DNA of 64,000 bases from Ornithinimicrobium tianjinense (GTDB lineage: Bacteria > Actinomycetota > Actinomycetes > Actinomycetales > Dermatophilaceae): contig NZ_BMEM01000001.1 in NCBI RefSeq assembly GCF_014636495.1, positions 716,016-780,015 of the forward strand. The letters are read 5' to 3'. This document shows, piece after piece, positions 1 to 64,000 of the stretch. Positions within the stretch are counted from its first letter, which is position 1, and every line of letters begins with the position of its first letter. Position numbers and translations under genes: made by a program. Under the pieces are notes generated by a model that had not been told where the DNA came from, made no database searches, and worked only from the letters and a program-made list of their open reading frames with translations.

Positions 1-433
1 CGCGGGCCTCGGCGACCAGGGCGAAGGTCAGCCCGTCCAGGACCGTGCGCAACGCCCCGGCCACCCCCAGGGCGTCCACGACCCCGGCGTCGAAGACGTG
101 CACCAGACCCGCCGGGTCCACCACCCCGCCCTCGGCACCACCACGGCCGGCACCACCGAGGCCGGCGGCGCGGTCCAGGCCGCGGACCGCGGCCTGCAGG
201 CCCCGGTCCAGCTCCTCCCCGGCCCACCCGGCCGGCTCCTGCCGCTCCAGGGCCAGGGTCTCCTCGGCCTCGGCCAGCAGCAGCCAGTACTCCGCGTCCC
301 CCTCCTGCGGGTCCTCACCGAACAGCGCCTCCTGCTCGGCGAACACCCCCAGCGCGAACGCGACCTGCTCATCACTGACCGGCCCGCCCACGAACTCCTC
401 CCACGCCTCCACCGCACGCGCCCCGCTGCTCAT
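1..433 (-). CDS. N-terminal part of a DUF222/HNH endonuclease-like protein (cut by window edge)
   Basis: The minus-strand frame starts at ATG 433, preceded by a good ribosome site (GGAGGAGGGG), and runs off the left edge after 144 codons. The protein begins MSSGARAVEAWEEF, is acidic and rich in Ala and Glu, and ends in the helix LDGLTFALVAEAR. That resembles the start of the 13E12/DUF222 family, whose long actinobacterial members usually carry an HNH nuclease domain at the far end. That end is outside the window, so nuclease activity cannot be confirmed. The open plus-strand frames over the same bases are composition shadows. Family call is tentative; the coding call is fairly firm. Confidence 0.5.
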   Translation of the reverse strand, partial: MSSGARAVEAWEEFVGGPVSDEQVAFALGVFAEQEALFGEDPQEGDAEYWLLLAEAEETLALERQEPAGWAGEELDRGLQAAVRGLDRAAGLGGAGRGGAEGGVVDPAGLVHVFDAGVVDALGVAGALRTVLDGLTFALVAEAR

Positions 434-612
434 CTGCCAACCCCTCCTCCGCCGCCCGGAGCTCTGCCGCCCCTGGTTCGCTCGCCCCTCATCTCCATGA
501 CCCCACTCAACCAGGCACCACCGACATACCCACCCCACGCCCCTGACCAGCACAGACGCGCGGGAGAGGGCTACTGGTGACTGGCGATCCATGAAGGAGG
601 AAACTGAAAGAC

Positions 613-1035
613 ATGCGCCGACTCTGGATCGTCCTCCTCGCCGTGGTGGTGGTCGTCGTCAGCACCTCCGTCTGGCAGGGCGACTACCTGTTCGCTGCCG
701 CCTATGCCGTGGGCGGGCTCGCCCTCGTGTGGTGGACGGCGCCGTGGCGGGGCGGCCGCACCATCACCCACCAGGAGGTTCTTGCCATGCCCGAGTCCGA
801 GCGTCCCGTGGTCGTCTACTGGCGACCCGGCTGCGGTTACTGCCAGCGGCTCCGGCACGTCCTCGGCGAGGACGCCGGAAGGGCGACCTGGGTCAACATC
901 TGGCAGGACGAGGAGGCGGCGGCGTTCGTGCGCAGCGCCAACGACGGCAACGAGACGGTCCCGACCGTCGTGATCGACGGCATACCCCACACCAACCCCG
1001 ACGCCGAGACCGTCCGCGCCGGGCTCACCGCATGA
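613..1035 (+). CDS. Membrane-anchored glutaredoxin/mycoredoxin-like protein
   Basis: A 140-residue protein with ribosome site AAGGAGG 11 bases before the ATG. Residues 1-18 and about 27-43 form two hydrophobic segments, so the redox domain is probably held at the membrane. From residue 58 it is a glutaredoxin fold: WRPGCGYC gives a CxxC active site at about 73-76, and TVPTVVIDG supplies the cis-Pro loop that binds the thiol substrate. CGYC is typical of actinobacterial mycoredoxin-like proteins, which reduce mycothiol mixed disulfides. The stop overlaps the next start (ATGA), so it is translationally coupled to the DUF488 gene. The exact substrate is unknown. Confidence 0.85.
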   Translation: MRRLWIVLLAVVVVVVSTSVWQGDYLFAAAYAVGGLALVWWTAPWRGGRTITHQEVLAMPESERPVVVYWRPGCGYCQRLRHVLGEDAGRATWVNIWQDEEAAAFVRSANDGNETVPTVVIDGIPHTNPDAETVRAGLTA

Positions 1036-61458: not shown

Positions 61459-63141
61459 ATGGCCGAATTCATCTACACCATGACGCGCGCCCGCAAGGCG
61501 GTCGGCGACAAGGTGATCCTCGACGACGTCACGATGTCCTTCTACCCAGGCGCCAAGATCGGCGTCGTGGGCCCGAACGGCGCGGGCAAGTCGACCATCC
61601 TCAAGATCATGGCCGGACTGGACCAGCCCTCCAACGGCGAGGCCCGCCTGTCCCCGGGCTACAGCGTCGGCATCCTGCTGCAGGAGCCGCCGCTCAACGA
61701 GGAGAAGACCGTCCTGGGCAACGTCCAGGAGGGTGTCGGCGAGATCAAGGCCAAGCTCGACCGCTACAACGAGATCTCCGAGCTCATGGCCGACCCGGAC
61801 GCCGACTTCGACGCCCTCATGGCGGAGATGGGCACGCTCCAGGAGGAGATCGATCACGCCGACGCCTGGGACCTCGACGCACAGCTCGAGCAGGCGATGG
61901 ACGCCCTGCGCTGCCCGCCGCCGGACGCCGACGTGACCGTGCTCTCCGGTGGTGAGCGCCGACGCGTGGCGCTGTGCAAGCTGCTGCTGAGCAAGCCGGA
62001 CCTGCTGCTGCTCGACGAGCCCACCAACCACCTGGACGCCGAGTCTGTCCAGTGGCTGGAGCAGCACCTCGCGGCCTACCACGGCGCCGTGCTCGCCGTC
62101 ACCCACGACCGCTACTTCCTCGACAACGTCGCGCAGTGGATCGCCGAGGTCGACCGGGGCCACCTCTACCCCTACGAGGGCAACTACTCGACCTACCTGG
62201 AGAAGAAGCGCGAGCGCCTCGCCATCCAGGGCAAGAAGGACGCCAAGCTCGCCAAGCGCCTGGAGAAGGAGCTGGAGTGGGTGCGCTCCAACGCCAAGGC
62301 CAAGCAGACCAAGAACAAGGCGCGTCTGGCCCGCTACGAGGAGATGGCGGCCGAGGCCGACAAGACCCGCAAGCTGGACTTCGAGGAGATCCAGATCCCG
62401 CCGGGCCCGCGTCTGGGCAACCAGGTCATCGAGGTGAGCGACCTGCGCAAGGGCTTCGGCGACCGGGTCCTCATCGACGGCCTGAGCTTCACCCTGCCGC
62501 GCAACGGCATCGTCGGCGTGATCGGTCCCAACGGTGTCGGCAAGACCACGCTGTTCAAGACCATCGTCGGGCTCGAGGAGCCGGACGGCGGCACGGTCAA
62601 GATCGGTGACACGGTCAAGATCAGCTACGTCGACCAGGGCCGGGCCAACATCGACCCGCAGAAGTCGCTGTGGGAGGTCGTCTCCGACGGCAACGACTTC
62701 ATCCAGGTCGGTCAGGTCGAGATCCCCTCGCGCGCCTACGTCAGCCAGTTCGGCTTCAAGGGCCCGGACCAGCAGAAGAAGGCCGGCGTCCTCTCCGGTG
62801 GTGAGCGCAACCGCCTCAACCTGGCGCTGACCCTCAAGGAGGGCGGCAACCTGCTGCTCCTCGACGAGCCGACCAACGACCTGGACGTCGAGACCCTCGG
62901 CTCCCTCGAGAACGCCCTGGAGTCCTTCCCGGGCTGCGCCGTGGTCATCAGCCACGACCGGTGGTTCCTCGACCGCGTCGCCACGCACATCCTCGCCTAC
63001 GAAGGTGACGAGGAGGACCCGGCGAAGTGGTACTGGTTCGAGGGCAACTTCGGCGCCTACGAGGAGAACAAGATCGAGCGCCTGGGTGCCGAGGCGGCTC
63101 GTCCGCACCGCGTCACCTACCGCAAGCTCACCCGCGACTGA
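61459..63141 (+). CDS. ettA: Energy-dependent translational throttle protein EttA (ABC-F ATPase)
   Basis: A 560-residue ABC-F protein with two ATPase cassettes and no membrane part. Walker A loops are GPNGAGKST and GPNGVGKTT. Signatures are LSGGERRRVALC and LSGGERNRLNLAL, and Walker B motifs are LLLLDEPTNHLD and LLLLDEPTNDLD. The arm and P-site tRNA-interaction motif region (KRERLAIQGKKDAKLAKRLEKELEWVRS) between them is typical of EttA, which gates the first elongation step according to ATP level. Confidence 0.96.
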   Translation: MAEFIYTMTRARKAVGDKVILDDVTMSFYPGAKIGVVGPNGAGKSTILKIMAGLDQPSNGEARLSPGYSVGILLQEPPLNEEKTVLGNVQEGVGEIKAKLDRYNEISELMADPDADFDALMAEMGTLQEEIDHADAWDLDAQLEQAMDALRCPPPDADVTVLSGGERRRVALCKLLLSKPDLLLLDEPTNHLDAESVQWLEQHLAAYHGAVLAVTHDRYFLDNVAQWIAEVDRGHLYPYEGNYSTYLEKKRERLAIQGKKDAKLAKRLEKELEWVRSNAKAKQTKNKARLARYEEMAAEADKTRKLDFEEIQIPPGPRLGNQVIEVSDLRKGFGDRVLIDGLSFTLPRNGIVGVIGPNGVGKTTLFKTIVGLEEPDGGTVKIGDTVKISYVDQGRANIDPQKSLWEVVSDGNDFIQVGQVEIPSRAYVSQFGFKGPDQQKKAGVLSGGERNRLNLALTLKEGGNLLLLDEPTNDLDVETLGSLENALESFPGCAVVISHDRWFLDRVATHILAYEGDEEDPAKWYWFEGNFGAYEENKIERLGAEAARPHRVTYRKLTRD

Positions 63142-63168
63142 GCCCGCCCGACGGTCCCCGCTGAGCGC

Positions 63169-64000
63169 GTGCCTCGTCGACGCAGGCCCCGGCCGCCGCT
63201 CCCTCCCCGGGACGGGCTGGGGCCTGCGCGCGTCCGGCTCCCGGTCGACGGCCGCTGGTCGACCGTCGTCGAGTTCCTCGTCACGGTCACCGGTGACGAG
63301 GAGGGGGTATGGCGTCGCGTGCGGGCGGGGGAGGTGCTCCTGGGCGACGGGACCCGGGTCGAGGAGGGCACGCCCTACCGGCCGGGCGGCGCGGCATACC
63401 TCTATCGGGACGTGCCCGTGGAGACCGAGGTGCCGGGCCGGCTCGAGGTGCTCCTGCGCGACGACGACACCGGGCTCCTCGCCGTCGACAAGCCTCCCTT
63501 CCTGGCGACCATGCCGAGAGGCCAGCACGTCTCCCAGACGGTCCTGGTCCGGCTGCGTCGCGAGCTCGGCCTGCCCGACCTCGCACCCGTCCACCGGCTC
63601 GACCGGCTGACCAGCGGCGTCCTGCTGCTCACCACCCGCCCGGAGGCCCGCAGTGCCTATCAGCGGATGGTGCAGGCCGGCGGGCTGAGCAAGACCTACC
63701 TGGCGCTCGCGCCGCTCGCGGTCGATCCACTGCCGGTCGTCGTGCGCAACCGGATCGTCAAGACCAGGGGCGAGCTCCAGGCGCGGGTCGTGCCGGGCGA
63801 GCCGAACGCCCAGACCCTTGTCGAGCTGGAGGAGGTGCTCGGGCTCGGGCAGGAGGTGCTCGGCCGCTACCGGCTCACACCGACCACCGGCCAGACCCAC
63901 CAGCTGCGCGTCCACCTCAGCGGCCTCGGCATCCCGATCGCGGGGGATCCGCTCTATCCGGTCGTGCGGGAGGTCGCCGCCGACGACCTCAGCACGCCCC
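63169..64000 (+). CDS. RluA-family RNA pseudouridine synthase (cut by window edge)
   Basis: The frame from GTG 63169 runs off the right edge after 277 codons. VHRLDRLTSGVLLL contains the catalytic Asp of HRLD, preceded by LLAVDKPPFLATMP and followed by SKTYLALAP and TGQTHQLRVHLSGLGIPIAGDPLYP, all RluA-family motifs. The N-terminal 90 residues are longer than an S4 domain and start with a basic Pro/Arg stretch. It modifies uridine in rRNA or tRNA; which site cannot be told. It may be cotranscribed with ettA, whose stop is 27 bases upstream. Confidence 0.9.
   Translation, partial: MPRRRRPRPPLPPRDGLGPARVRLPVDGRWSTVVEFLVTVTGDEEGVWRRVRAGEVLLGDGTRVEEGTPYRPGGAAYLYRDVPVETEVPGRLEVLLRDDDTGLLAVDKPPFLATMPRGQHVSQTVLVRLRRELGLPDLAPVHRLDRLTSGVLLLTTRPEARSAYQRMVQAGGLSKTYLALAPLAVDPLPVVVRNRIVKTRGELQARVVPGEPNAQTLVELEEVLGLGQEVLGRYRLTPTTGQTHQLRVHLSGLGIPIAGDPLYPVVREVAADDLSTP

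Follow-up and report, generated by a model that had tools for sequence, protein, structure and literature searches.

A dispersed non-palindromic word in Ornithinimicrobium and its sister genera as a candidate uptake-sequence-like tag

Why does one short word recur roughly once per kilobase on both strands of an actinobacterial chromosome? The question arises from a 64,000-nt stretch (the window; 72% G+C) at C1:716016-780015 of an Ornithinimicrobium genome of 3.31 Mb in 12 contigs, labelled G000, in which a sequence-only reading had noticed about 60 occurrences of GTATG/CATAC. The exact number is 66 (31+35), and 65 of them fall within a single non-palindromic motif, GTATGNCG (consensus GGGTATGCCGTG), the sole outsider lying at position 7053 in window coordinates, which are used below. 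We propose, at a probability of roughly 55%, that GTATGNCG is a self-spreading, uptake-sequence-like tag of natural transformation in Ornithinimicrobium and several sister genera.

Form and enrichment of the motif

The recurring unit was initially described as an octamer, which is apt for the 46 of 66 occurrences that read GGTATG[C/A/G]C; since 65 of the 66 fit GTATGNCG, the latter is the true unit. When 8-mers are scored against a third-order Markov model, the top two of the window are CGGCATAC and GGCATACC, and GGTATGCC is found 28 times (8 on +, 20 on -), always with G directly after it, versus 1.9 expected, leading us to reject composition as the source. Among 475 copies of GTATG in 464 kb of the genome, the base at -1 is G in 73%, position +5 prefers C>G>A>T, and on the 3' side C at +6 (90%) and G at +7 (96%) are followed by T/C at +8 and G at +9. 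Because no codon can shape the motif between genes, we also derived a consensus from 120 intergenic sites, which reads G(56%) G(85%) GTATG C(58%) CG T(66%) G(67%). Single-base variants of GTATGCCG show no comparable enrichment, with the exception of those at the N position.

Genome-wide, GGTATGCC occurs 1,283 times (636+647) versus 17 (9+8) for the reversed word, and GGTATGNCG occurs 1,993 times (962+1031) versus 43 (19+24) for its reversed control. Massive over-representation of a short non-palindromic word is characteristic of the DNA uptake sequence (DUS) of Neisseriaceae and the uptake signal sequence (USS) of Pasteurellaceae. For finer analysis, we sampled 42 stretches (884 kb with the window), in which our own codon-usage script, rather than a standard gene finder, called 834 genes. 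This sample holds 749 copies of GTATGNCG, of which 603 are genic, 120 are intergenic and 26 span gene ends, corresponding to densities of 1.48/kb between genes versus 0.75/kb within them. An intergenic excess with head-to-head pairs at terminators, as in DUS and USS, is thus present in G000, where one such hairpin was folded (4868-4912).

Could codon usage, composition or a mutational hotspot alone produce the word? In favor of this explanation, sites read in frame most often place TAT as a Tyr codon, a synonymous state of little cost. The sequence-only claim that the motif ignores frame is correct only in part: all six frame/orientation classes are occupied, but 287 of the 603 genic sites are sense sites with TAT as an in-frame Tyr codon. 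We ran the codon-matched model that had been named as the refuting test, shuffling synonymous codons gene by gene in the 811 usable genes (23 of the 834 were left out). The real genes carry 593 sites (381 sense + 212 antisense), whereas the shuffles average about 69 (50.5 + 18.2) with a maximum total of 84 in 60 shuffles. For the 63 genes of the window, the observed 34+16 likewise compares with a mean of 4.2+1.6 and a maximum total of 14 in 100 shuffles. The procedure is conservative because the TAT and ATA codons brought in by the motif are retained; within the 811 genes, 69% of ATA codons (59/85) and 64% of TAT codons (284/442) sit inside it. Neighboring words instead fall below their own shuffles (121 observed vs 321 shuffled for GTACGNCG and 25 vs 70 for GCTATG), and the doubled intergenic density also speaks against a coding origin. 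Codon bias is excluded as the source, and we give this whole group of explanations next to no chance. The motif is a DNA-level signal, as the sequence-only reading had supposed.

The sites of the window are listed below with strand; "read at" gives the position reported from the sequence alone, and all such positions proved correct to within 9 bp.

522..529, -, GTATGNCG site, intergenic
978..985, -, GTATGNCG site, read at 981
1094..1101, +, GTATGNCG site
2290..2297, -, GTATGNCG site, read at 2291; retained in 9/20 aligned relatives
3215..3222, +, GTATGNCG site, retained in 17/20 aligned relatives; G027 has GTATGCGG
3305..4837, +, gatB, the gene behind the tree of relatives
3631..3638, +, GTATGNCG site within gatB; aligned relatives have GTACGACG in 18/20 and the motif in 2/20
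4868..4912, no strand, terminator-like hairpin with 20-bp perfect arms directly 3' of gatB; its stem holds two head-to-head motif copies
4879..4886, -, GTATGNCG site in the hairpin, read at 4881
4894..4901, +, GTATGNCG site in the hairpin, read at 4893
5429..5436, +, GTATGNCG site
5794..5801, -, GTATGNCG site; dialect GTATGNGG at the matching place in 7/19 aligned relatives
6492..6499, +, GTATGNCG site
6877..6884, -, GTATGNCG site
8129..8136, +, GTATGNCG site
8452..8459, -, GTATGNCG site, read at 8454
9781..9788, -, GTATGNCG site
9860..9867, +, GTATGNCG site, read at 9860
11402..11409, -, GTATGNCG site
11925..11932, +, GTATGNCG site
12154..12161, -, GTATGNCG site, retained in 12/16 aligned relatives
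12256..12263, -, GTATGNCG site, intergenic
13302..13309, -, GTATGNCG site, intergenic under the present gene calls, read at 13310
13499..13506, +, GTATGNCG site
14229..14236, -, GTATGNCG site, intergenic; GTATGNGG in 4/14 aligned relatives
15309..15316, +, GTATGNCG site
15862..15869, +, GTATGNCG site at a gene end
19839..19846, -, GTATGNCG site, read at 19843
20256..20263, -, GTATGNCG site
21226..21233, -, GTATGNCG site
21948..21955, +, GTATGNCG site, intergenic
22459..22466, -, GTATGNCG site, intergenic
22866..22873, -, GTATGNCG site
24487..24494, +, GTATGNCG site
25130..25137, -, GTATGNCG site, read at 25133
25332..25339, +, GTATGNCG site
27451..27458, +, GTATGNCG site
29740..29747, +, GTATGNCG site
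30190..30197, -, GTATGNCG site
31287..31294, -, GTATGNCG site, read at 31289
33183..33190, +, GTATGNCG site
33933..33940, -, GTATGNCG site
34745..34752, -, GTATGNCG site, intergenic
36063..36070, +, GTATGNCG site, read at 36061
36887..36894, -, GTATGNCG site, intergenic
36965..36972, +, GTATGNCG site
37234..37241, +, GTATGNCG site
38137..38144, +, GTATGNCG site
39681..39688, -, GTATGNCG site, read at 39683
41569..41576, -, GTATGNCG site
43345..43352, +, GTATGNCG site
44253..44260, -, GTATGNCG site, read at 44255
45657..45664, -, GTATGNCG site
49195..49202, -, GTATGNCG site
49727..49734, -, GTATGNCG site
50425..50432, -, GTATGNCG site
51028..51035, +, GTATGNCG site, intergenic
52091..52098, +, GTATGNCG site
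54862..54869, +, GTATGNCG site
55552..55559, -, GTATGNCG site, intergenic
56083..56090, +, GTATGNCG site
57465..57472, +, GTATGNCG site
57854..57861, -, GTATGNCG site, read at 57857
60444..60451, -, GTATGNCG site
60515..60522, +, GTATGNCG site
63307..63314, +, GTATGNCG site, intergenic
63392..63399, -, GTATGNCG site, read at 63392

Two further observations concern the surroundings of these sites. At 46183-48591 (-), the window encodes a probable surface protein of large size that contains three SpaA-type prealbumin-like stretches. The genome also holds a second repeat family with a unit of about ACCGGACAGGCGTTNNTGCC, which forms short tandem arrays at a spacing of 17 to 43 bases (window 60257-60350; L100:7768-8122; L107:12855-13308; L101:4101-5436; L102:12471-12654), often closely 3' of stop codons; at several loci, two such arrays face one another.

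Orientation, dialects and distribution

The two orientations of GGTATGNCG are near-equal genome-wide, as in DUS and USS, which lack orientation bias along the chromosome. Locally, they differ by 3 sites or fewer in 21 of 21 20-kb stretches and by 5 of 65 in the window, and the excess per stretch is far below what randomly drawn orientations would give (chi-square 12.9 for 42 stretches, lower-tail probability 4e-6). This equality gives no indication that the motif is tied to the direction of replication. The strand-bias check that had been suggested for the motif thus yields local balance in the sampled stretches, the origin itself not being mapped, and a motif bound to the replication strand is disfavored. 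On the same grounds, FtsK-orienting polar sequences (KOPS) and other architecture-imparting sequences are disfavored as candidates, since these carry a replichore strand bias, and the orientation that follows replication in Chi sites is likewise not seen in these stretches.

The tiny excess per stretch is explained by the pair correlation of sites, in which same-orientation pairs are depleted at short range. In the 884 kb, adjacent sites tend to alternate (468 opposite vs 239 same). Same-orientation pairs occur at 0.06-0.44 of expectation below 400 bp, at 0.39-0.79 from 400 to 1000 bp and at about 1 beyond, whereas opposite-orientation pairs stay at 0.7 to 1.45 at every distance. Within 1 kb, there are 149 same and 340 opposite pairs; when orientations are permuted over fixed positions, the same-orientation pairs average 235 (sd 10), with a minimum of 194 in 1,000 permutations. 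The opposite excess appears inside single genes (55 same, 151 opposite) as well as between sites in different genes or spacers (94 same, 189 opposite), and codirectional (85:194), opposed (15:25) and intergenic (49:121) settings all display it, so gene direction is not the cause. The orientation-specific exclusion implies that the two orientations count separately.

Opposite neighbors also outnumber same neighbors in all eight further sets compared by count, without a significance test: G007 (90:39), G012 (34:20), G025 (48:21), G147 (48:19), G180 (74:26), G202 (59:43), G100 and G102 (87:56) and other Ornithinimicrobium pooled (138:52). The effect is weak in G202 and uneven over distance in G147 and in G100 and G102. 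As a control, we took IMG/VR contigs in which the Pasteurellaceae or Neisseria tag occurs as an inverted pair and dropped duplicates and loci with <0.3 sites per kb or <3 sites, retaining 28 of 79 Pasteurellaceae loci (175 sites) and 48 of 80 Neisseria loci (391 sites). At 60-1000 bp, neither tag displays exclusion in these presumed proviral contigs and flanks, which are hairpin-selected, of unnamed hosts and few in Pasteurellaceae pairs: the Pasteurellaceae tag gives 28 same vs 22 opposite (z +1.3; 50 pairs) and the Neisseria tag 107 vs 132 (z -0.9). With the same script, G000 gives 146 vs 318 (z -7.3). Indifference to the orientation of a neighbor, which both known kinds of tag display in this sample although it is not strictly defining, is absent from G000, and the exclusion over about 1 kb is a new property relative to the known tags in this limited sample.

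The motif occurs in dialects that share the fixed core GTATG, with GTATGCCG, GTATGCGG and GTATGCCC as dialect words. The leading G is not needed in HTCC2649 (G147), G180 and G202 favor GTATGCCGCG, G100 and G102 take A, C or G at N, G007 is relaxed at the final G, and G025 takes C or G at position 6. In the orthologous gatB regions, some of 20 relatives carry GTATGNGG exactly at GTATGNCG loci of the window (e.g. 5794, 9860, 11925 and 14229). This word is counted 123 times in G000, 390 to 657 times in G005, G027, G025, G004, G001 and G002, and 81 times in the empty genome G022. The gatB tree, which represents one gene and has 16 of 27 weak inner branches, groups G000 with G005 and G027, and any agreement of the dialects with phylogeny, as in the DUS, would depend on it. 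A plasmid search with gatB yielded three distant records that were uninformative. Conservation in relatives, another check suggested earlier, gives a divided answer on 8 to 18 aligned sites per relative: it exceeds that of random 8-mers in 14 of 20 relatives (0.38-0.64 vs 0.25-0.35) and falls below it in the other six (0-0.33 vs 0.21-0.36). The low values result partly from dialect change. In G022, none of 12 aligned sites is kept, and in 10 of them the fourth base is C instead of T (TAC in place of TAT).

When the 186 genomes of the family, which we take to be Dermatophilaceae/Intrasporangiaceae, are compared, the motif is family-restricted and patchy. Within Ornithinimicrobium (31 genomes), 30 have 385 to 1,993 copies of GGTATGNCG, the exception being G022 with 56; the motif counts of G019, in the same genus, are 185/200/15/16. 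Loaded sister genera include g67 (11/11 genomes with at least 489), g55 (9/9, at least 587), g72 with Terrabacter (9/9, at least 331) and g39 (5/5, at least 1,664), while the genera g52 Janibacter (16/16 with at most 57) and g2 (12/12, at most 51) are empty. The remaining genera are intermediate, and borderline cases exist, as the reversed-word controls span 1 to 349. Sharp contrasts are found even within genera: G079 has 21 copies versus 513 to 1,067 in G076-G078 and G080 (controls 101 to 164), and G154 has 26 versus 1,674 in G155 and 368 in G156. In our sample of the order (297 genomes), all 273 genomes from 19 other families stay at or below 177 copies at genome sizes up to 9.4 Mb, several of them a few times above their own reversed control. 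No replacement word of like strength was found in 60 to 100 kb samples from each of the empty genomes G022, G138, G198 and G154, which makes the function look dispensable, as competence is.

Three genomes deserve separate mention. G018 (L195) and G006 (L196) have low overall GGTATGNCG counts (437 and 714), yet each has 22 copies of GTATGNCG in 20 kb around gatB and keeps 5/8 and 7/11 of the aligned window sites, respectively; their density may be very uneven, or the gatB region may have been exchanged. In the motif-free Janibacter G123 (L141-L144), other words are enriched, namely CGAAGGGGG, GGGCAGTTGCGC-like words and pieces of GGGCAGTTGCGCAAC, which look like a dispersed repeat.

A proposed uptake tag and its alternatives

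Among the DNA-level signals that the sequence-only reading had listed, an uptake-sequence-like one fits best, as judged from the patchiness, dialects, intergenic density, hairpin and orientation balance. We infer that a cell-surface or import-associated protein would prefer motif-bearing DNA and that fragments with the motif would enter and recombine more often, such that copies would accumulate wherever homologous DNA is exchanged, following the uptake-drive model developed for Neisseria and Haemophilus. Uptake drive yields such accumulation, as well as genus-wide absences, dialect change at the same locus and intergenic density. By analogy with Micrococcus luteus, import would run via a Flp/Tad pilus with ComEA/ComEC. 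The motif would be read in an orientation- or strand-specific manner, for example on the single imported strand, so that a second same-orientation site within about 1 kb would add no gain and an opposite-orientation site would act independently. Single-strand import through ComEC has polarity, and so has Chi; the exclusion follows if the word is read on the imported strand or by a directional enzyme.

Candidate machinery is encoded in G000. A comEA gene (SLBB and helix-hairpin-helix domains) adjoins comEC, and a Tad cluster beside ftsZ comprises flp, tadE, tadG, rcpC, cpaE, tadA, tadB and tadC, some of them named by homology or position; a second Tad cluster has a DUF4244 Flp-like gene. We rejected a general absence of sites from competence loci, as the comEA-comEC region has 23 sites in 43.2 kb from 14 loaded genomes. 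The Tad clusters of Ornithinimicrobium, by comparison, are almost devoid of sites. Across five genomes of the genus (L219:9536-16571, L271-L274), the roughly 35 kb from flp to tadC contain one site, which lies in tadC of G000; sites were counted as GTATGNCG in G000 and as GTATGNC in the other four, with GTATGNGG left out, and as these genomes are relatives, the counts are not independent. The ftsZ-side cluster lies in the largest siteless gap of the 884-kb sample (10.1 kb). A further Tad type (G027, G002, G003 and G015) lacks GTATGNC and carries three GTATGN[C/G]G over 32 kb, and a single site falls in the 4.1 kb of the second G000 cluster. The Tad regions of G147 (3 sites in 8 kb) and G180 (4 sites in 8 kb) are not poor in sites. 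The site-poor clusters look as would be expected of loci that diversify quickly or were gained by lateral transfer and rarely recombine, but they may also hint at something pilus-specific. A siteless stretch of 7.6 kb, cut at the stretch end (L226:1-7609), carries a TrwC-type relaxase gene, so a mobile element may lack the motif, in agreement with the first of these readings.

Several points weigh against an uptake tag. We know of no transformable Ornithinimicrobium, and no receptor candidate for the motif was found. ComEC (180/186 family genomes), TadE (181/186) and ComEA (17 of the 18 genomes queried; it was missed in G019, which is 75% complete) are present in loaded and empty genomes alike, so the machinery does not track the motif; neither these nor N-methyl pilins separate loaded from empty genomes. 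In 182 of 186 family genomes, including G000, no canonical type IV N-methyl pilin was detected, which makes a receptor like ComP, the N-methyl minor pilin that binds DUS, unlikely and leaves room for a receptor of another type. The below-random conservation in six relatives counts on the same side, as does the lack of exclusion in the limited sample of known uptake sequences. Furthermore, uptake in H. influenzae is reported to be unaffected by tag orientation (PMC1939737). Together with the control loci, this makes part of the signature unlike the model systems. As ComP-type receptors are undetected and the orientation behavior differs, we do not claim membership of the DUS/USS class. Lastly, a directional recombination site would yield an identical exclusion.

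This last point is central to the chief alternative, a Chi-like recombination hotspot at which a directional helicase-nuclease (AdnAB or another) would read the motif on single-stranded DNA and switch from degradation to recombination. Directional reading would exclude same-orientation sites only, in keeping with the exclusion over about 1 kb that the Neisseria and Pasteurellaceae samples lack, and hundreds to thousands of 8-base sites are of the right order for Chi. However, RecC is present in 89 of 186 family genomes without relation to the motif: the loaded genera g55 (0/9), g67 (1/11) and g72 (1/9) mostly lack it, while Janibacter g52 (15/16) and G079 have RecC without the motif, and we rejected RecBCD as the partner. 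The local orientation balance also speaks against Chi, and the existence of whole genera with neither the motif nor, in the four empty genomes sampled, a replacement word would be odd for a repair signal. Because orientation is balanced, RecC does not track the motif and whole genera do without it, we favor uptake and consider a Chi-like role unlikely, though worth keeping in view. We regard as less probable still a methylation, restriction or nucleoid-binding site, such as the one-strand target of a bacteriophage exclusion (BREX) or type III-like system, whose abundance would be epigenetic or structural. The non-palindromic site and its sharp recognition with one free position would suit such a target, but we know of none with an enrichment of tens of times, dialect shifts at shared loci need a strong force on the DNA word itself, and the exclusion of same-orientation sites alone within 1 kb would have no reason.

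If GTATGNCG is an uptake tag, it is to our knowledge the first Gram-positive case of its kind; the abundant uptake sequences of this type that we know to be documented are from Neisseriaceae and Pasteurellaceae, both Gram-negative. None of the open-access literature matches listed describes an uptake sequence in Actinobacteria, which is no proof of absence. It has long been disputed whether uptake sequences benefit the cell or simply mirror receptor bias, and an independent Gram-positive case that combines dialects with both loaded and empty sister genera, and in which N-methyl pilins go undetected, would offer a comparative test. The exclusion per orientation can be measured as a length of about 1 kb and has a polarity, neither of which is predicted by any uptake-drive model known to us. 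The motif would also predict natural competence in soil actinobacteria that are hard to engineer and that could then be made transformable. More speculatively, and with odds that we place below even, it may represent a new class of genome-wide tag: a self-spreading signal that reaches about 1 kb and is read on one strand in one orientation, directing single-stranded DNA import or integration in monoderms, combining uptake-sequence drive with the directionality of Chi, and evolved in Actinomycetota without a ComP-like pilin receptor.

Comparison with known systems

The closest actinobacterial parallel is Micrococcus luteus, whose transformation needs Flp pili and which has comEA/comEC orthologues; G000 resembles it in having Tad and comEA/comEC genes, and the term "uptake sequence" is absent from the main text of that report (PMC4322843). 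The cyanobacterial octamer HIP1 (highly iterated palindrome, GCGATCGC) is similarly hugely over-represented in one clade, with a debated function (PMC4390886), but is palindromic and linked to methylases of GATC and CGATCG, whereas GTATGNCG is not self-complementary. Chi of RecBCD/AddAB is likewise short and non-palindromic, and its directional reading would explain the exclusion; unlike Chi, the present motif has no local orientation bias and no RecC association and is absent from whole genera.

The USS of Pasteurellaceae (AAGTGCGGT) has a long flanking AT pattern, for which the present motif, flanked only by GG and TG, has no counterpart, and the Pasteurellaceae loci (50 pairs below 1 kb) lack the orientation-specific exclusion. 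In copy number, short core, non-coding excess and use in terminators, the two are alike (PMC1939737, PMC5217627). The DUS of Neisseriaceae (GCCGTCTGAA and its dialects) is a different word, the present host is an actinobacterium without detected N-methyl pilins or a known receptor, and same-orientation exclusion in G000 has no equal in the Neisseria loci. The tags of Neisseria and Pasteurellaceae are reported to show no orientation bias, a non-coding excess and terminator pairs (PMC1939737, PMC5217627), and dialects are known for the DUS (PMC3630211). The motif and the DUS also share features: both are non-palindromic, occur at about one copy per kb in both orientations, form hairpin pairs and vary by single-letter dialects around a fixed core, with some family members lacking the word altogether (PMC3630211, PMC1939737, PMC2346458).

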